From: Marinosulfonomonas sp.
GTDB lineage: Bacteria; Pseudomonadota; Alphaproteobacteria; Rhodobacterales; Rhodobacteraceae
Assembly (NCBI GenBank): GCA_022712735.1
Contig: JAFLKA010000231.1
Span: 1-8,281 of the forward strand
Length of the DNA: 8,281 nucleotides
Direction: 5' to 3'
Part shown: positions 1 through 8,099 of the stretch, piece after piece
How the letters are laid out: each line of letters starts with the position of its first letter
Numbering within the stretch: the first letter of the stretch is position 1
The notes under the pieces: model-generated
The model's database searches: none
Seen by the model: only the letters and a program-made list of their open reading frames with translations
Told to the model about the DNA's origin: nothing
Position numbers and translations under genes: made by a program

Positions 1-1194
1 GCGAAGGCCCAGCGCCAGCCAGATCAGCAGGGTCACGGCAAAGGTCACCACGAACAGTTTGAAGATCAGCTCGTTGACCTTTTCATTGGCGGTCTCGCCA
101 TAGTTGCGGGTGACTTCGACGTGGATGTTATCGGGGATCAGGGTGCCTTTTAGGCGCTCAATATAGGTCAGAATATCGTTGGCCACCGAAACGCCATTGG
201 TGCCGCCTTTTTTGGCCACCGCGATGGTGATAGCAGACGCACCGATGGGCGCACGCTCATCAACGTGGTCCTGGCCCTCATGAGCGCCATAGGCGGGGCC
301 GGTATAGTAGGACACAAGGCTGTTTGCGTCATCGGTGCTTTCGGTCACCAGCGCCACATCACGGATATAGATCACTTGCCCGTCTTGCGAGCCGATCATC
401 AGGTTTTCAATGTCACGGGCGTTTTGCAGGAATGATCCGGTTTGCAAAGAAAAGGTGTTTTGCCCCACTTCAATCGCCCCGACCGAGCGTTCGGAATTGG
501 CGTTGCGGATGGTTTGGGCCAACTGGTCAAGGCCAATGCCGAAACCGGCCAGCCGTTCGGGGAAAATCTCGACACGGATCGCGTTGGAACGCCCGCCAAC
601 AATAAAGCTCTGCGAGGTGCCGTCGACCTCTTTCAGGCGTTGCATTACATCCAGACCCAGCGAGCGCAGACCGGCTTCGTCCATCTGGTGTGACCACAGC
701 GTCAGGGTAACAATCGGCACATCGTCCACGCCTTTGGGGCGGATCAACGGGTGCGACACGCCGGGCGGGATGCGGTCCAGATTGGACTGGATCTTGTCAT
801 TCAGTTTGACCAGCGATGGTCCAAGCTCTTCTCCGACCTCGAACTGCACCGTGACCATCGCGCCATCACGATGCGACACGGAATAGACGTGTTTAACGCC
901 TTGAATTTCGGACATCATCCGCTCTAGCGGATCAGTGGCGAGCGATGCCACCTGATTGGCGGACGCGCCATGATACGAGAAGAAAATATCGACCATCGGC
1001 ACGGAAATTTGCGGGTCTTCCTGACGTGGTGTCAGGATCAGACCCATGATGCCTAACCCAAGGCACGCAACCAGCAACAGCGGCGATAGCGGTGAATTGA
1101 TGAACATTCTGGCAAGGCTGCCAGCCATCCCCAGCTTGGGACGCTTGGCTTCATCGGCACCGGTATCCGGTTGGTTATTTTCTTCGGTAGCTAT
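1..1194 (-). CDS. RND efflux transporter (AcrB/HAE1-like), N-terminal part, runs off the window
   Basis: Inner-membrane proton-driven pump of a tripartite efflux system. About 400 of an expected ~1000-1100 residues are visible, uninterrupted. Reading from 1194: a hydrophilic N-terminal tail of ~25 residues, then the conserved RND opening (ARMFINSPLSPLLL, first membrane helix about 35-55). The porter-domain segments follow, with PRQEDPQISVP, the GASANQV motif, the DPLERMMSEIQGV stretch and NDKIQSNLDRIPPGV. Near the edge, ETANEKVNELIFKLFVVT enters the second membrane helix. Substrate specificity cannot be read from this half. The gene follows the adaptor gene by 71 bases in the same direction, so the two form an operon. 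The start is odd: from the in-frame stop near 1243 down to 1129 there is no ATG, GTG, TTG or CTG preceded by a usable ribosome-binding site. A strong AAGGGAGG at 1207-1200 sits 5 bases before an ATA codon at 1194-1192. The first in-frame ATG is at 1128-1126, with poor ribosome-binding context. Confidence 0.93.
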   Translation of the reverse strand, partial: MATEENNQPDTGADEAKRPKLGMAGSLARMFINSPLSPLLLVACLGLGIMGLILTPRQEDPQISVPMVDIFFSYHGASANQVASLATDPLERMMSEIQGVKHVYSVSHRDGAMVTVQFEVGEELGPSLVKLNDKIQSNLDRIPPGVSHPLIRPKGVDDVPIVTLTLWSHQMDEAGLRSLGLDVMQRLKEVDGTSQSFIVGGRSNAIRVEIFPERLAGFGIGLDQLAQTIRNANSERSVGAIEVGQNTFSLQTGSFLQNARDIENLMIGSQDGQVIYIRDVALVTESTDDANSLVSYYTGPAYGAHEGQDHVDERAPIGASAITIAVAKKGGTNGVSVANDILTYIERLKGTLIPDNIHVEVTRNYGETANEKVNELIFKLFVVTFAVTLLIWLALGLR

Positions 1195-1265: not shown

Positions 1266-2423
1266 TTATTCCCCTGAAATCAGGTTGGCGGGCGGGTTCA
1301 GGATAACCTGTTCGCCCCCGTTCAATCCTGACACCACCGATATGCGGCCATCAGGCAATGGATAGCCGACGCGCACCAACCGCAGGGACGGGTGCCCGTC
1401 CTCAAGCACAAAGACCGACGGCAGACTGCCGCGCCAGATCAGGGCCTCGTTTGGAATAGCGTGGCCGGTGCGCGGCGGGATTGATGCGTCGGGCACAGTG
1501 ACCTCGACATACATGCCCGGTCCACCCGGTGTGTCATAAGGCAGATCAAACTTGACCCGCACGGTGTGGCGTTTTGGATCGGCCACTGGAAAAATCTGCG
1601 CCACTTTGGCGTCGACCGTGGCACCGCCCACATCCAGACGGGCCGGAACGATCATGCCCTCAGATAGACCAGCTGCCAGACGCACCGGAATTTCGGCGTC
1701 AATGCGCAGGTAATCGGTAAAGGCGTAGGTGATCAGCGGCATGCCGGGCTGAACCGTATCGCCGACCTCGACCATTTTGTTGATCACAATGCCATCAAAC
1801 GGCGCGATGGACCGCGTGTCGCGCACCCGTGTGTCCAGCGCTTCCAGATTGGCCTGCGCCTGCATCAAGGCACTTTGTGCCTGATTGATGCCGACACCGC
1901 GGGCGTAAAGGTCGGCCTGACGTTCCACACCGGTGTTGGTCATGCCCAGTGAATCAGAAAACCCACGGGTAAAGAACTGATCAAACGTTGACGGGATACC
2001 CATGCCGGGAATACCGGTCATCGAATTTGTGCGGGGCGCATAGAGTTCGCGTGAATACTGCATTTGCGAGTTGCGCAGAGTGGCTTCGGCCTGATTGATC
2101 TGCGCCAGCGCGGCGCGGCGCTGGGCCTGAATGCCGTCGTCCCCGATTTGCAGCAACACATCGCCCGCTTTGGCGCGGTGCCCTTCAACGCCTGCCAAAA
2201 ACGTCACGCGTCCCGGGCTTTGGGCGGTCAGTGTCACCTGCTTGAACGGGATAACCGTGCCGCCAACCGTGGCTTCGCCGCCGGTGGTGGTGGTTGAAAC
2301 AGGGGCGGTTTGATAGCTGCCCTCGGATTGGGCGTGACTGATCGAGGCCGTTAGCAGGGGGGCGGCACATAGTGTGGCTACCAAAACGTAGAATGATGAT
2401 TTCATCCGGACTGTCTTCCGCAT
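1266..2423 (-). CDS. Periplasmic adaptor (membrane fusion protein, HlyD/AcrA family) of the RND pump
   Basis: Links the inner-membrane RND pump to an outer-membrane channel. Numbering from the ATG at 2423 (385 residues): signal peptide 1-31 (basic MRKTVRMKSS, hydrophobic core, SHA cleavage site, no lipobox cysteine). The first lipoyl half spans 54-93 (GGTVIPFKQVTLTAQSPGRV...KAGDVLLQI) and the alpha-hairpin about 98-200. The second lipoyl half is 203-233 (IAPFDGIVINKMVEVGDTVQPG), then the beta-barrel about 235-310 and the membrane-proximal domain to the end. The hairpin is interrupted around 128-176 by a Gly/Met/Pro/Phe-containing stretch (NSMTGIPGMGIPSTFDQFF...) that does not look like coiled coil. 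Start choice: ATG 2423 has GGGGAG four bases upstream and gives a compact signal peptide. In-frame ATG 2435 and GTG 2444 would add 4 or 7 residues and remain possible. It is the first gene of the efflux operon. Confidence 0.95.
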   Translation of the reverse strand: MRKTVRMKSSFYVLVATLCAAPLLTASISHAQSEGSYQTAPVSTTTTGGEATVGGTVIPFKQVTLTAQSPGRVTFLAGVEGHRAKAGDVLLQIGDDGIQAQRRAALAQINQAEATLRNSQMQYSRELYAPRTNSMTGIPGMGIPSTFDQFFTRGFSDSLGMTNTGVERQADLYARGVGINQAQSALMQAQANLEALDTRVRDTRSIAPFDGIVINKMVEVGDTVQPGMPLITYAFTDYLRIDAEIPVRLAAGLSEGMIVPARLDVGGATVDAKVAQIFPVADPKRHTVRVKFDLPYDTPGGPGMYVEVTVPDASIPPRTGHAIPNEALIWRGSLPSVFVLEDGHPSLRLVRVGYPLPDGRISVVSGLNGGEQVILNPPANLISGE

Positions 2424-2475
2424 ATCGCTCCCCATTTGTTGCACCTAATAAAGGTTGTGTAATAATTCCTGTCGC

Positions 2476-2792: not shown

Positions 2793-3197
2793 CTAGAAGG
2801 GGAATGCATTGCCCCACATATAGGACATCGGGTTGGACATGGCATAGGTTGCCTGACCGATATCATAGGTCATCCGGTTCATGTTGGTCGCCATGTTGTT
2901 CATTGCGCCAGACAGCGTTTCCATTGTGCCAGTCATCGAACCCATGTTTTCGTTCATAACGGCGATGTTCTGGTTCATCGTCGACATGCTGGTGCTCATG
3001 CTGTGCATGTCATCTGCCATGCTAACTTGAGTGCCGACCATCGTTTTAATGCTCTCGTTTAGTTCCGTCATGATGTCGGTCATGGTGAAAACTTGTTGCG
3101 CCATTCCATACATCACCCAAGTAAATACAGCCATTACAATCACGATCAACAATGTTGTCAGGCCGATAAAACGTCCGCTGTTTACACGTCTATACAT
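2793..3197 (-). CDS. Small single-pass membrane protein with a methionine-core coiled coil, function unknown
   Basis: 134 residues from ATG 3197 to TAG 2793. I do not recognise a named family. The N-terminus MYRRVNSGR is basic, followed by one membrane helix at about 11-31 (IGLTTLLIVIVMAVFTWVMY), so the likely topology is N-in with the rest in the periplasm. From 39 to 120 residues follow an unbroken 4-3 heptad spacing: 39, 43, 46, 50, 53, 57, 60, 64, 67, 71, 74, 78, 81, 85, 88, 92, 95, 99, 102, 106, 109, 113, 116, 120. Seventeen of these 24 core positions are Met, the others L46, I50, Q57, I78, L95, I113 and A116. All Met in the segment fall in the core, while outer positions are mainly Ser, Thr, Asn, Gly, Asp and Glu. 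The C-terminus is aromatic (YAMSNPMSYMWGNAFPF). In total 23 of 134 residues are Met and there is no Cys. The ribosome-binding site is weak (GAGAG about 9 bases upstream). It stands alone between two transport operons. Confidence 0.8.
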   Translation of the reverse strand: MYRRVNSGRFIGLTTLLIVIVMAVFTWVMYGMAQQVFTMTDIMTELNESIKTMVGTQVSMADDMHSMSTSMSTMNQNIAVMNENMGSMTGTMETLSGAMNNMATNMNRMTYDIGQATYAMSNPMSYMWGNAFPF

Positions 3198-3558: not shown

Positions 3559-4653
3559 GTGGCTATGACCGACTCGGATGCCGCGTATGTCGAATTCGAC
3601 CACGTGCAGAAAAGTTACGACGGCGAAGTGCTTGTTGTAAAAGACCTGAACCTGAAAATTGCCAAAGGCGAGTTTGTCACCATGCTCGGGCCTTCGGGAT
3701 CTGGCAAAACGACCTGCCTGATGATGTTGGCGGGATTCGAGACAGCAACCCATGGTGAAATCATGCTGGGCGGTGTTTCGATCAATGACATCCCGCCGCA
3801 CAAACGCGGCATTGGCATGGTGTTTCAATCCTACGCCCTGTTCCCGCATATGACGGTGGGTGAAAACCTGTCGTTCCCGTTGGAAGTGCGCGGCATGGGC
3901 AAGGACGAGCGCGAGACCAAAGTTAAGCGCGCGCTGGACATGGTGCAGATGGGTGATTTCGCACAACGCCGCCCCGCACAACTGTCCGGTGGGCAGCAAC
4001 AACGTATCGCGCTGTCCCGTGCGCTGGTGTTTGAGCCGAAAGTCGTTTTGATGGATGAGCCATTGGGCGCGTTGGACAAACAGTTGCGCGAACGGATGCA
4101 GTTCGAGATCAAGCATTTGCACGAGAGCCTCGGCATCACCGTGGTCTATGTAACGCACGACCAATCCGAAGCCCTGACCATGTCGGACCGCGTGGCGGTG
4201 TTTGATGATGGCCGTATTCAGCAGCTGGCCTCGCCCGAAGATCTGTACGAGCGCCCTGAAAACAGCTTTGTTGCGCAGTTCATTGGCGAGAATAACAAAC
4301 TGCATGGCACCGTGCAGTCGCTGAAAGGCGACATTGCCACAATCAAACTGGACAACGGCGGCACATGTGCGGCTTTGGCGGTGAATTGCGGTGAGGTTGG
4401 CGCGAAAACGCTGATTTCGATCCGCCCTGAACGGGTGACGATCACCAAAAAGGCCGGGCCGAATTCGACTTCGGCACAAGTTCTGGAGCTGATCTATCTG
4501 GGTGATCACATCCGTTGCCGCCTGAATGTGCATGGCAATGACGAGTTCATCGTGAAGGTTCCCAATGCCGCGGGCCACAAACATCTGGTCGTTGGCGAAA
4601 CAACACAAATCACATGGGATGCGAAAGACGCGCGCGCCCTTGATACGCTATAA
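3559..4653 (+). CDS. ABC transporter ATP-binding protein, PotA-like (spermidine/putrescine type)
   Basis: Cytoplasmic ATPase that powers the importer encoded with it. 364 residues, normal for the PotA/MalK-like class. Motifs: Walker A GPSGSGKT at 44-51, Q-loop Q90 in MVFQSYALFPHMTV, signature LSGGQQQR at 142-149, Walker B VVLMDEP at 162-168, D-loop ALD at 171-173, switch histidine H200 in YVTHDQSEALTMSDR. After the nucleotide-binding domain (~1-240) comes a TOBE-type C-terminal domain (~245-355, with ISIRPERV and YLGDHIRCRL), typical of importers of polyamines, sugars, iron or thiamine. The QSYALFPHMTV and RPENSFVAQFIGENN stretches resemble PotA. The start is GTG 3559 on spacing grounds. It is the first gene of a four-gene operon, with the binding-protein gene 73 bases downstream. 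Function as importer ATPase is certain; polyamine as substrate is inferred from the family resemblance of the whole operon. Confidence 0.95.
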   Translation: MAMTDSDAAYVEFDHVQKSYDGEVLVVKDLNLKIAKGEFVTMLGPSGSGKTTCLMMLAGFETATHGEIMLGGVSINDIPPHKRGIGMVFQSYALFPHMTVGENLSFPLEVRGMGKDERETKVKRALDMVQMGDFAQRRPAQLSGGQQQRIALSRALVFEPKVVLMDEPLGALDKQLRERMQFEIKHLHESLGITVVYVTHDQSEALTMSDRVAVFDDGRIQQLASPEDLYERPENSFVAQFIGENNKLHGTVQSLKGDIATIKLDNGGTCAALAVNCGEVGAKTLISIRPERVTITKKAGPNSTSAQVLELIYLGDHIRCRLNVHGNDEFIVKVPNAAGHKHLVVGETTQITWDAKDARALDTL

Positions 4654-4667
4654 TAATCTGAACGATA

Positions 4668-4684
4668 GGGGCGGATAACGCCCT
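4668..4684 (+). promoter_or_regulatory. Small hairpin between ATPase and binding-protein genes
   Basis: GGGCG (4669-4673), loop GATAA, CGCCC (4679-4683), extended by one G-T pair. It lies in the 73-base gap just after the ATPase stop. There is no T-tract, so it probably acts as an RNA end or stability element, if at all. Confidence 0.35.
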
Positions 4685-4726
4685 GACAACACAACTGAGA
4701 AGTTCATGTAATAAGGGAGAAAACAC

Positions 4727-5797
4727 ATGAAAAAGACACTAATCCTAACAACGGCCCTGACCGGCTTTGCTTTTGCGGCCACCGCTGCCGAAGTGACCGT
4801 CATGTCATGGGGTGGCGCTTACACGAAATCGCAAGTGGAAGCCTATCATAAACCATTCACCGCCGAGACCGGCATCACTGTGAATTCAGTCGACAGCGAC
4901 AACCCTGCAACGCCAATCAAGGCGCAAGTTGAAGCTGGCAACGTGACAGTTGACGTCGCCGACATCGAATTCTCGGACGCGATCCGTTTGTGCGACGAAG
5001 GTTTGCTGGAAGAAATCGATCACTCAATGCTGCCAGCGGCACCTGATGGCACATCTGCGGCTGACGATTTCATTGATGGCGCGTTGCAAGATTGCGCTGT
5101 TGCCAACATCGTTTGGTCCACAGTGTTTGCTTACAACACAGCAAACAATGACGGCGAACCGACATCGATTGCCGACTTCTTTGACCTGGAAAAATTCCCG
5201 GGCAAACGTGGTTTGCGCAAATCTGCCAAAGCAACGCTTGAAATGGCGCTGATGGCGGACGGCGTTCCGGCTGGCGAAGTTTACGGTCTGATGGCCACTT
5301 CCGAAGGTATCGACCGCGCATTTGCCAAACTGGACACCATCAAAGGCGACGTCGTCTGGTGGGAAGCCGGAGCACAACCACCACAGCTGCTGGCCGATGG
5401 CGAAGTTGTAATGTCGACCGCCTATAACGGTCGTATCTTTAACGCTGCCATTGCTGAAAATCAGCCTTTGGTCGTGGTTTGGGACGGTCAGATCCTTGAT
5501 TTCGATCTGTTCGTAATCCCCAAAGGGGCGCCGAACAAAGAAGAAGCGATGAAGTTCATTGCGTTCTCGACCAGCACCTCGGCGCTGGCTGCACAGGCAA
5601 GCTACATTTCCTACGGTCCTGCGCGTAAATCTTCGGGCGCATTGGTCGGGAAATATTCCGACGGCACAACCGATATGGGCCCACACATGCCCACAGCCGA
5701 AGCCAACCTTGGCAACGCGCTGGTCAACAACTTTGAATTCTGGGTTGACCATGACGCCGAGCTGAACGAGCGTTTTAACGCTTGGCTGGCTAACTAA
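4727..5797 (+). CDS. Periplasmic substrate-binding protein, PotD/PotF-like (extracellular solute-binding family 1)
   Basis: Captures the ligand in the periplasm and delivers it to the two permeases. 356 residues. Signal peptide about 1-21 (MKKTLILTTALTGFAFAATAA), with cleavage likely just before EVTVMSWGG and no lipobox, so it is soluble. The mature opening VTVMSWGGAYTKSQVEAYHKPF and the segments FDLEKFPGKRGLRKS, WWEAGAQPPQLLADGEV and STAYNGRIFNA are typical of the PotD/PotF-type class. The motif FVIPKGAPNKEEAMKFI and the C-terminal FWVDHDAELNERFNAWL also fit. The protein has exactly two cysteines after cleavage, C89 and C123, which could form a disulfide (inference). The ribosome-binding site is strong: AAGGGAG at 4713-4719, 7 bases before ATG. 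Hairpins on both sides of the gene suggest it is made in excess over its neighbours. The substrate is probably a polyamine or similar cationic amine; other small ligands of this class cannot be excluded. Confidence 0.95.
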   Translation: MKKTLILTTALTGFAFAATAAEVTVMSWGGAYTKSQVEAYHKPFTAETGITVNSVDSDNPATPIKAQVEAGNVTVDVADIEFSDAIRLCDEGLLEEIDHSMLPAAPDGTSAADDFIDGALQDCAVANIVWSTVFAYNTANNDGEPTSIADFFDLEKFPGKRGLRKSAKATLEMALMADGVPAGEVYGLMATSEGIDRAFAKLDTIKGDVVWWEAGAQPPQLLADGEVVMSTAYNGRIFNAAIAENQPLVVVWDGQILDFDLFVIPKGAPNKEEAMKFIAFSTSTSALAAQASYISYGPARKSSGALVGKYSDGTTDMGPHMPTAEANLGNALVNNFEFWVDHDAELNERFNAWLAN

Positions 5798-5808
5798 GCA
5801 GATACGGC

Positions 5809-5834
5809 GCGGCGCGGGGATTTTCTCGCGCCGC
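5809..5834 (+). promoter_or_regulatory. Strong GC hairpin after the binding-protein gene
   Basis: GCGGCGCGGG (5809-5818) pairs with CTCGCGCCGC (5825-5834) over 10 bp, one of them G-U, around a 6-base loop. It starts 12 bases after the binding-protein stop. No T-tract follows (CCACACTTACC), so it is not a full intrinsic terminator. The usual role of such hairpins in importer operons is to protect the upstream mRNA from 3' decay, or to cause partial termination, and so raise binding-protein levels. Confidence 0.6.
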
Positions 5835-5862
5835 CCACACTTACCAACAGGTTGATGAACTC

Positions 5863-7158
5863 ATGGCTGATAGCACAACAAACCTAGAAACCGGCCTGAC
5901 CACGGCTGACGGCAAACCGCTGAAACAGGCACTGGCGCACGCCCAGTCCCGTTCCCGTCGCCGCGCGTTTATGCTGGTGTTGCCGCTGCTGTTGTTCATC
6001 CTTGTGACATTCATTCTACCGATCGGGCAGATGCTGCACCGGTCTGTGTTTAACGACGGCTTCACCACCCACCATGATCTGGGCACCCGCGTGGACACGC
6101 CGATTATGGTTAATCTGGCGGCGTGGTTCGACGAAAACCCCCAAGGGGTTGTGCCGGATGAGGCAGCTTACAGCGCACTTGTCACCGATCTGATCGAGCT
6201 AAAACGCCTAAAGGCGCCGGGGTCGGCGGGCACGCGGATCAACTATGGGCTGGCCGGATCGCGGTCCCTGTTCACGCAGGGCGCCCGCAAAGCCGCCAAG
6301 CTGGAAGCGCCGTTCAAAGAGGCCTTGATCGGGGTCAGTGCCAAATGGGAAAACCCAAAGCTGTGGCAAGTGATGCGCAGCGCATCCTCCTCCTATACCG
6401 GCGCTTTTTATCTGGCTGCGGTTGACCGCACGCAGGACGCAGATGGCGATGTTACGCGGGTCGAGGAAAACCGCCGCGTATACGTGAAACTGTTTGCCCG
6501 CACGTTGGGGGTGTCATTGCTGATCACCTTTCTTACGTTCATTCTGGCCTACCCAATCGCGCACCTGCTGGCCACGCTGCCGCTGCGCTATTCCAATCTG
6601 TTAATGATCTTTGTGCTGCTGCCGTTCTGGACTTCGCTATTGGTGCGAACCACCAGCTGGATGATCCTGCTGCAAAGTCAGGGGGTGCTGAATGATGCGA
6701 TGGTTGGCTCTGGTTTGCTGGACGAGGCGAACCGGATACAGATGATGTATAACAAAACCGGCACCATTGTGGCGATGACGCATATTCTGCTGCCCTTCAT
6801 GGTGCTGCCTTTGTATTCGGTGATGCGCCCGATCAACCCGTCCTATGTGCGGGCTGCGCGCTCGCTGGGGGCAACCAGCTGGACCGCATTCCGGCGGATA
6901 TATTTCCCGCAAACCGTGCCGGGGATCGGGGCGGGTGCCTTGCTGGTTTTCATCCTTGCGGTTGGCTACTACATTACGCCAGCGCTGGTGGGCGGGGCCG
7001 ATGGCACGCTGATTTCAAACCTGATCGCCTTTCACATGACAAAATCGCTGAACTGGTCGATGGCCGCAGCCCTTGCGTCGCTGCTGCTGGGCGGCATTCT
7101 GATCCTCTACTGGCTGTATGACCGGCTGGTGGGCATCGATAATCTGAAACTGGGATAA
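5863..7158 (+). CDS. ABC transporter permease 1, PotB-like, with a large periplasmic insertion
   Basis: Inner-membrane half of the importer channel. 431 residues against roughly 280-320 for ordinary PotB-type permeases. A cytoplasmic tail (1-34, ending RSRRR) precedes helix 1 at about 36-56. A hydrophilic segment of ~150 residues (57-208) follows and should be periplasmic. The conserved core then starts: helices near 211-240, 245-272, 300-322, 355-378 and 398-418. The ATPase-contact (EAA) loop is 329-349, RAARSLGATSWTAFRRIYFP, with the invariant Gly present. The insertion has no cysteines or recognised domain; it is rich in Lys and Ala and contains GTRINYGLAGSRSLF. The ribosome-binding site is weak (AGG about 11 bases before ATG 5863). 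Permease 2 follows after 5 bases, so the two are probably translationally coupled. Confidence 0.94.
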   Translation: MADSTTNLETGLTTADGKPLKQALAHAQSRSRRRAFMLVLPLLLFILVTFILPIGQMLHRSVFNDGFTTHHDLGTRVDTPIMVNLAAWFDENPQGVVPDEAAYSALVTDLIELKRLKAPGSAGTRINYGLAGSRSLFTQGARKAAKLEAPFKEALIGVSAKWENPKLWQVMRSASSSYTGAFYLAAVDRTQDADGDVTRVEENRRVYVKLFARTLGVSLLITFLTFILAYPIAHLLATLPLRYSNLLMIFVLLPFWTSLLVRTTSWMILLQSQGVLNDAMVGSGLLDEANRIQMMYNKTGTIVAMTHILLPFMVLPLYSVMRPINPSYVRAARSLGATSWTAFRRIYFPQTVPGIGAGALLVFILAVGYYITPALVGGADGTLISNLIAFHMTKSLNWSMAAALASLLLGGILILYWLYDRLVGIDNLKLG

Positions 7159-7163
7159 CGCAC

Positions 7164-8099
7164 ATGGGTTTACCAAGTTACGCCTCACCGCTGGAACGTA
7201 TCTGGCACTACACGTATCTGACGCTTTGCGCGCTGATCTTTCTGTTCCTGATCGCGCCAATCCTGATCGTGATACCGCTGTCGTTTAACGCCCAGCCCTA
7301 TTTCACCTTCACCAAAGAGATGCTGGCGCTGGATCCGGCAGGCTATTCAACCCGCTGGTATGACCTGCTGCTGACCTTCGGGATGAACGCACCTGATGTG
7401 GCCCGCGATAGCGCGTGGTGGGCGGATGCGTGGGAAAACGCGAACTGGATCAAGGCGACGAAAAACTCGATTATAATAGGGTTCTTTGCCACCATTCTGG
7501 CCACGGTTCTGGGCACGGTGGCCGCTTTGGGGCTGTCCAAACCCGACATGCCATATCGGCGCCCGATCATGGCGATGCTGATCTCACCGATGATTGTGCC
7601 GATCATCATCACCGCAACGGGGCTGTTTTTCTTCTACTCGAAAATCGGCATCAGTCACTGGTCGATCTTTGGCTGGGAAATTCCCTATCTGGGCGTCATT
7701 CTGGCCCACGCCACGCTGGGCATTCCGTTTGTTATTATCACGGTAACGGCGACCTTGGTCGGGTTCGATCACTCGCTGACCCGCGCTGCGGCCAACCTTG
7801 GGGCCAACCCGCGCACCACATTTTTCAAAATCATCATGCCGCTGATCCTGCCAGGGGTGATTTCAGGGGCATTGTTCGCCTTTGTCACCTCGTTTGACGA
7901 AGTGGTAGTGGTGCTGTTCATCGGTGGTCTGGACGAGCAAACCATCCCGCGCCAGATGTGGAACGGGATCCGTGAGCAGATCAGCCCGGCGATCCTGTCT
8001 GTGGCGACGATCCTTGTGATCATCTCGACCATGTTGCTGGCAACGGTGGAATTGCTGCGACGCCGCAGTGAGAAACTGCGCGGGATCACACCACACTAG
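7164..8099 (+). CDS. ABC transporter permease 2, PotC-like
   Basis: Second membrane half of the importer channel. 311 residues, longer than a standard PotC (about 260-280). Helices lie at about 18-40, 102-124, 134-158, 176-200, 225-250 and 277-298. The EAA loop is 206-229, TRAAANLGANPRTTFFKIIMPLIL, with the conserved Gly. SFDEVVVVLFIGG (243-255) and TIPRQMWNGIREQISPAI (260-277) are strongly PotC-like. The periplasmic segment after helix 1 is enlarged to ~60 residues (41-100) and Trp-rich (RWYDLL, SAWWADAWENANWI), matching the larger insertion in permease 1. The start ATG 7164 is 5 bases after the permease 1 stop, with GGGAT as a modest ribosome-binding site inside the upstream gene's end. It is the last gene of the operon; two palindromes follow. 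Confidence 0.95.
   Translation: MGLPSYASPLERIWHYTYLTLCALIFLFLIAPILIVIPLSFNAQPYFTFTKEMLALDPAGYSTRWYDLLLTFGMNAPDVARDSAWWADAWENANWIKATKNSIIIGFFATILATVLGTVAALGLSKPDMPYRRPIMAMLISPMIVPIIITATGLFFFYSKIGISHWSIFGWEIPYLGVILAHATLGIPFVIITVTATLVGFDHSLTRAAANLGANPRTTFFKIIMPLILPGVISGALFAFVTSFDEVVVVLFIGGLDEQTIPRQMWNGIREQISPAILSVATILVIISTMLLATVELLRRRSEKLRGITPH

Follow-up and report, generated by a model that had tools for sequence, protein, structure and literature searches.

Background

To our knowledge, coat proteins are the only parts described for known sulfur globules. Among described proteins, SgpD of Allochromatium vinosum comes nearest in role to the protein reported here, the passages on it in PMC10386293 describing it as periplasmic, possibly coiled-coil and co-localised with sulfur globules. 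We analysed an 8,281-nucleotide stretch of DNA (the window) that encodes a 134-amino-acid protein with a methionine-core coiled coil, labelled ZIP, which is predicted to be periplasmic as well and for which we claim likeness to SgpD in role but not membership of its family. SgpD, as presented in those passages, has a Sec signal peptide, whereas ZIP seems to retain a membrane helix; and while the SgpD passages name no pump (the term RND has 0 occurrences in PMC10386293), ZIP is encoded beside an RND pump. Inactivation of the SgpD gene is reported there to leave globule formation and degradation unaffected, so deletion of ZIP might also have only mild effects.

Other described systems share parts with the locus. 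Sulphur globule proteins of family PF17228 are matched above the family cut-off in several genomes by a low-complexity protein of the cluster (LC3), but here this protein is encoded together with an RND pump, a coiled coil, a ParA-type ATPase and a dynamin. The adaptor and permease superfamilies are common to the locus and to tripartite RND pumps, the nearest solved chains being those of 6vej (presumably TriABC) for both subunits and of CmeB for the permease. The locus differs from such pumps in that the adaptor hairpin has a conserved insert, the permease has a long tail, and no outer-membrane factor is found in L066, the nearest genome, among the same-strand genes from ZIP to C19, all of which are assigned (by gene assignment rather than by a dedicated profile). 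MmpS5L5 of mycobacteria, going by the portions of PMC12501195 that describe it, combines an RND pump, a partner protein with one TM helix and a coiled-coil tube in the periplasm, so that coiled-coil extensions are within the repertoire of RND pumps. By that description, the coiled coil of MmpS5L5 belongs to the permease, whereas here it belongs to a separate protein. As in the McdA/McdB system for carboxysome positioning (ParA family; PMC12204374), a ParA-type ATPase is encoded here with putative organelle parts, but the cargo would sit across the inner membrane from the ATPase.

A conserved coiled coil with a methionine core

An earlier note on this DNA, made from the letters alone, proposed a membrane-anchored protein with a Met core and gave its coordinates without a strand; the open reading frame is on the minus strand, 3197..2793 (Table 1). 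ZIP begins with MYRR, which suggests that its N-terminus faces inward, and continues with a single membrane helix, the heptads and an aromatic tail. The core register (residues 39, 43, 46 and onward to 120) runs through 24 positions with no skip, and these are occupied by 17 Met together with L46, I50, Q57, I78, L95, I113 and A116. All 17 methionines among residues 39-120 are in core positions and none lies outside the core, which bears out the register that had been proposed. None of 100,000 residue shuffles reached 17 core Met when each was read in its best register (maximum 14).

Table 1. Positions in the window of ZIP, its segments and the genes of the partner pump
Feature	Position	Strand	Basis
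ZIP, 134-aa membrane-anchored Met-core coiled-coil protein	2793..3197	-	ORF, homologues, heptad counts, AlphaFold
ZIP residues 12-33, transmembrane helix with near-invariant FTWVMYGMA	3099..3164	-	Alignments; helix and topology read from sequence
ZIP residues 36-121, heptad coiled coil	2835..3092	-	Register; family lengths mostly whole heptads
ZIP residues 122-134, conserved aromatic tail NPMSYMWGNxFPF	2796..2834	-	Alignment
RND periplasmic adaptor (MFP), partner gene	1266..2444	-	TIGR01730, 160 bits; co-occurs with ZIP
MFP hairpin insert PRTNSMTGIPGMG..FDQFFTRGFSDSLG, of constant length in 21 aligned adaptors	1944..2036	-	Alignment
RND permease, 5' part only, runs past window end	1..1128	-	PF00873, 175 bits

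In an AlphaFold model of the monomer (alignment of 42 sequences, window protein included; mean pLDDT 80.3), residues 7-121 form a single helix in which the hydrophobic segment, conserved in the alignment, is continuous with the coil. As it was the monomer that was modelled, parallel oligomerisation is something that we infer, and ZIP would then be a parallel, periplasmic rod of approximately 130 Angstrom (86 residues at 1.5 Angstrom each) anchored in the inner membrane. By the rules derived from GCN4, beta-branched residues at a and unbranched residues at d favour a parallel dimer. The a/d pattern of ZIP may thus favour a dimer, and a trimer would suit an RND pump.

ZIP belongs to no named family, as the earlier reading had suspected: the best matches in Pfam, NCBIfam and PHROGs (E values 0.007, 3.6e-4 and 7e-4) are below the cut-offs where these are given and are typical of coiled coils, and the Pfam and NCBIfam searches gave no match of AcrZ or MmpS type. 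The labels as methyl-accepting chemotaxis proteins that some relatives carry were not adopted, since they look like generic coiled-coil names.

A protein search returned 86 homologues at E ≤ 1e-3 and a profile search 114 proteins, the window's own included in both. Between the window and locus L030, ZIP has 37 synonymous versus 25 non-synonymous codon differences, and 53 of the 83 base changes are at third positions, which indicates a protein under selection; together with the homologues, this excess settles the question whether the frame is genuine or spurious in favour of a real gene. Both end anchors of ZIP are present in 104 of the 114 proteins (P0085, P0086, P0090, P0093 and P0109-P0114 were dropped). 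The distance between them is 91, 98, 105, 112, 119 or 126 in 95 of these 104, i.e. whole heptads, and insertions and deletions of seven residues are what a coiled coil allows. The remaining distances are 102 or 109 in seven proteins (four residues off) and 85 and 122 in one protein each.

According to the earlier note, methionines placed outside the core in homologues would speak against its proposal. Among the 95 members with a whole-heptad anchor distance, 1448 of 1478 Met are in core positions and 30 are outside, and the Met core is thus conserved. Met occupies 76% of the d positions and 40% of the a positions in these members, and the other a positions are filled chiefly by Ile, Val and Phe. 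At residue 57, 62 of the 95 have Gln, and Ser, Thr, Ala, Asn, Gly and Asp predominate at the outer positions. The aromatic tail pointed out earlier is likewise conserved in the family alignment. We know of no other natural family whose coiled-coil core is conserved as Met.

Linkage of ZIP to an RND pump

The genome scan gave 47 ZIP loci (48 with the window), and in all but L031 and L045 the sequence continues for 600 bp or more beyond ZIP, which leaves 46. The 47 loci are mostly metagenome-assembled and mostly labelled Rhodobacteraceae or Rhodobacterales, with one from Magnetospira; the strain-named carriers are Maritimibacter fusiformis HY14, Sinisalibacter aestuarii B-399 and Maritimibacter sp. 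HL-12. In 39 of the 46 loci (window included), the adaptor gene shares the strand of ZIP and starts no more than 600 bp downstream of it; in two (L003 and L005) it lies approximately 1 kb away, after C19. It does not follow ZIP in five loci (L008, L009, L013, L043 and L046), but these five genomes carry it elsewhere, and all 17 genomes tested have the adaptor. The guess that ZIP might serve as a scaffold for the neighbouring pump gains from this linkage.

In a sample of 248 genomes of the family, evenly drawn with G001 as its centre, ZIP was detected in six (E ≤ 1e-10) and the adaptor in seven (E ≤ 1e-60; G001 among these seven), and in a sample of 289 genomes of the class the centre genome was the only one with ZIP and likewise the only one with the adaptor; these searches score part of the candidates per genome, so that absences are not certain. 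The seventh adaptor genome is that of L047, where tblastn detects ZIP remnants split over frames. At L047:5200-6100 these remnants, in differing frames, precede an open adaptor frame, and the same region (L080) is without a permease; it may represent a decaying cluster or assembly errors.

Both the permease and the periplasmic adaptor are above cut-off (PF00873 and TIGR01730, respectively), and the L066 permease scores 438 bits with the general RND model versus 224 with CusA/CzcA. The AlphaFold model of the adaptor is poor (pLDDT 54.5), and a plasmid search for this protein gave no match. The hairpin-insert stretch of the adaptor matched 156 proteins at E ≤ 1e-3, which are 265-418 aa long among the 120 matches listed. 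If the adaptor hairpin acted as a ruler, the length of ZIP would be expected to track it; the insert is equally long in all 21 adaptors aligned, whereas ZIP differs in length, and the ruler idea was therefore rejected.

After its last conserved membrane motif, the permease carries a Lys/Ala/Pro-rich tail of 118-295 aa (e.g. L021:4594-8547). Near their end, 23 of the 24 distinct tails carry RRGIR[LI] and the remaining one RRGIRV. A hydrophobic stretch (19 residues with a mean hydropathy of at least 1.6) lies ahead of the cationic part in 21 of the 24 tails, all except those of L003, L030 and L034. Because of this stretch, the cationic part may be periplasmic, in which case it would be unable to meet ParA.

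Gene content of the cluster

The cluster consists of ZIP, the RND adaptor and permease, the low-complexity proteins LC1, LC2 and LC3/SGP, C11, a ParA/MipZ-type ATPase, a TPR protein, a dynamin-like GTPase and C19. As the window ends inside the permease, the rest of its own cluster is extrapolated from the relatives L002 and L066; the sulfur-globule-like proteins, the ATPase and the GTPase thus lay beyond what the earlier note could see. Two to three low-complexity proteins are encoded behind the permease in 20 of the 21 loci with a readable permease end, the exception being L040, where 106 bp are left. Read from their sequence, these proteins have hydrophobic N-termini resembling signal peptides, and they may be exported. 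LC1 has the motifs PGPY and PYWMQ, and LC2 has NPW, YAPADLxQRL and the end SPFGFW/F; in L015, L016, L017 and L026, LC1 and LC2 are swapped for other low-complexity proteins. LC3 has NWGPW repeats, GSFNFGFSGNAEG, in 20 of 20 loci.

Hydrophobic N-termini are also found in C11, which matched no family, and in the TPR protein. The ATPase has the deviant Walker A motif KGGTGKST and matches PF01656 (1e-11) and PF09140 (1e-8); in L066 and L008, PF01656, PF13614 and PF09140 are all above cut-off. The GTPase is of the dynamin family (PF00350, 1e-13). C19 (L003:887-1483, L008:7391-7987, L066:17042-17611) weakly resembles the FtsH peptidase M41. In 17 of 17 stretches (some being the same gene fetched twice), its first His of HEAGH, which we take to be the FtsH zinc motif, is replaced by Tyr, so C19 is probably not an active protease.

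The region was fetched from 15 of the 17 adaptor-tested genomes (G541 and G542 were left out, and L068, which overlaps L077, was unused). The order MFP-RND-C11-ParA-TPR-dynamin is found in 13 of the 15, and in G006 and G070 the permease and ParA are absent from the fetched stretch. ZIP is the first gene of the cluster in 10 of the 13 genomes with this order. It is displaced to the far end, after C19, in G007, lies beside C19 on another contig in G008, and stands elsewhere beside another RND in G010 (Magnetospira); in L008 and L013 the displaced ZIP is still at the dynamin/C19 end of the cluster. Within the fetched regions, tblastn detected low-complexity proteins in L066 and L078 only, those of other loci resting on reading behind the permease (in G008 on the PF17228 scan), and none was seen in L081 of Magnetospira.

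Some loci depart from this arrangement. At L018:8592-11060, and in L079, a 3'-truncated adaptor is followed by a dynamin-gene fragment and C19, and permease to ParA are absent. At L043:3429-8426, in Magnetospira, ZIP comes after a distant RND permease (43% identity), with a 350-aa gene before it, while the adaptor that belongs to the cluster is found on a different contig (L081). In the window, a PotABCD-like operon for a polyamine-type ABC system (3559-8099) is divergent from ZIP. This operon adjoins ZIP in L001, L002, L030 and L066 and not in the other loci listed, and as a neighbour in close relatives only it was not taken as part of the system. Beyond it, L066:1-616 encodes a TsoY-family membrane protein (NCBIfam NF047644, 251 bits).

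Possible links to sulfur metabolism

LC3 matches the sulphur globule protein family (SGP, PF17228), which is a low-complexity family: of the 20 loci, 17 reach E ≤ 0.01 (best 8.7e-11) and three miss this threshold, and shuffled LC3 sequences did not match (0 of 9). Relative to the curated cut-off of 26.7 bits, LC3 scores above it in L010 (34.5), G007 (40), G001 (29.2) and G008 (27.8) and below it in L012 (18.8). In the family sample, three of the 248 genomes have a PF17228 match above the cut-off; each of them carries ZIP, and the match falls within this cluster. No control genome (0 of 14) had one, and four of the seven ZIP/adaptor genomes of the sample gave no match. The LC1 and LC2 proteins tested matched no family.

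SoxB is above cut-off in 39 of the 47 ZIP genomes (pieces of 177-450 bits are present in five more, and three have no credible match) and in 156 of the 248 family genomes. The corresponding numbers for SoxC are 22 of 47 (plus one fragment) and 152 of 248. SoxC is absent from 19 of the 39 SoxB-positive ZIP genomes versus 7 of the 158 SoxB-positive family genomes without G006 (Fisher p = 1.5e-10, an overstated value, with kinship uncorrected), in a comparison in which G001, G007, G008, G105 and G070 belong to both sets and G013, also with ZIP, to the background, SoxB was called at E ≤ 1e-100 in the background (159 genomes, 156 of them over the cut-off) and at the cut-off in the ZIP set, and the genomes with SoxB but without SoxC were picked by comparing two lists by eye.

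A truncated Sox system as a strict rule was rejected, since only these 19 of 39 lack SoxC, and what is seen is a tendency: SoxC is kept in 20 of the 39, and also in the window's near relatives L001, L002 and G013, and L030 is without it. According to PMC9959259, sulfane sulfur may build up where the Sox system lacks SoxCD, and the loss of SoxC among ZIP genomes agrees with a sulfur-storing life. We regard a sulfur function of the cluster as about evenly balanced between true and false.

Discussion

The explanation that we prefer, and to which we give an even chance, casts ZIP as a periplasmic rod, anchored in the inner membrane, that belongs to an envelope machinery by which putative sulfur-globule-like bodies are built, held or positioned. 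The short N-terminus of ZIP would be cytoplasmic, and from the inner membrane the protein would extend into the periplasm as a parallel, soft, Met-packed rod. The aromatic tail of ZIP might dock to the RND adaptor or to the aromatic-rich proteins that resemble a globule coat (the end of LC2 is rich in Pro, Phe and Trp, similar to the ZIP tail), and such docking would hold a periplasmic sulfur body at the pump. The pump could feed hydrophobic sulfur or coat material to the docking site. Positioning of the body would fall to the ParA-type ATPase, acting through either the tail of the permease or the membrane-bound TPR protein, and membrane shaping to the dynamin-like GTPase. Met might have been selected for the core because it is Leu-like but softer, which would keep the core adaptable in a rod that evolves by heptads, and a thioether lining would be compatible with non-polar sulfur.

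Several of the results above count against this explanation. The length of ZIP is independent of the constant adaptor hairpin, and ZIP is away from the adaptor in five loci. The PF17228 match involves a low-complexity family, is missed at E ≤ 0.01 by 3 of 20 LC3 proteins and is lacking in four of seven genomes, and the LC1 and LC2 proteins tested match no family. SoxC is kept in about half of the SoxB-positive ZIP genomes and also in near relatives of the window, and the cationic part of most permease tails may lie on the side of the membrane away from ParA.

The proposal can be taken further, tentatively and with considerable doubt, to a dedicated machine spanning the inner membrane by which a sulfur organelle in the periplasm would be built, anchored and partitioned, with ParA and dynamin in the cytoplasm, RND and TPR links in the membrane and the Met-cored rod reaching to the globule coat. 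It is part of this hypothesis that the thioether core would be suited to sulfur-rich, non-polar surroundings. We lowered our estimate of this extended form slightly because of the hydrophobic stretch in most permease tails, which weakens a plain cytoplasmic contact with ParA.

Alternatively, ZIP might be an efflux-pump accessory only, with a role by analogy like that of AcrZ or MmpS, stabilising the RND trimer or spacing the adaptor; the pump would then export a hydrophobic metabolite, and the low-complexity proteins would be separate cargo or surface proteins. Having just one TM helix and lying next to an RND pump is typical of accessory subunits, the tightest linkage of ZIP is to the adaptor and permease, and the Magnetospira ZIP adjoins a second, distant RND permease. 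However, a pump accessory leaves the co-conserved SGP-like proteins, ParA, TPR and dynamin unexplained, and the displaced ZIPs of L008 and L013 remain at the dynamin/C19 end; we consider this role unlikely.

It is also possible, and in our estimate about as unlikely, that the cluster builds a non-sulfur protein body or surface polymer, in which the N/G/W-rich and Q/P/G/Y-rich proteins would make up a hydrogel or an extracellular matrix that ZIP anchors to the membrane. The lack of any family match for LC1 and LC2, the four ZIP/adaptor genomes without PF17228 and the family-wide commonness of Sox genes would fit such a polymer. It is harder to reconcile with the PF17228 matches of LC3 (17 of 20 loci), which shuffled sequences do not reproduce, and with the enrichment of SoxC loss in ZIP genomes (kinship uncorrected).

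The earlier note had raised two further roles. A methionine-oxidation sensor or sink, with a coil that would open on oxidation, draws on the expectation that sulfoxide formation should destabilise a Met core, but no Msr gene or regulator is among the co-conserved genes, in which nothing points to this role, and a positions are often Ile, Val or Phe instead of Met; we judge it very improbable. A thioether surface handling copper, silver or heme, favoured by the high Met content and nothing else, is hardly credible, given that Met-rich copper and silver proteins of the CusF and CopK type have exposed Met ligands whereas Met in ZIP is confined to the core, that no copper or heme gene is co-conserved and that the permease is closer to the general RND model than to CusA/CzcA.

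A literature search, with subscription papers and preprints outside its scope, found no description of this cluster. Since no known system with this combination of genes was found, we rate the system as new in kind: each enzyme of the cluster is of a known superfamily, and it is the combination that appears to be new.

Conclusions

ZIP represents a clear natural family of proteins in which selection holds a coiled-coil core as methionine while length evolves by heptads. We know of nothing beyond coat proteins concerning how periplasmic sulfur globules are built, placed and inherited. If ZIP is the rod of a machine for sulfur-globule-like bodies, as we prefer, the cluster gives testable genes for sulfur-globule biogenesis, and these are present in the marine isolates Maritimibacter fusiformis and Sinisalibacter aestuarii.
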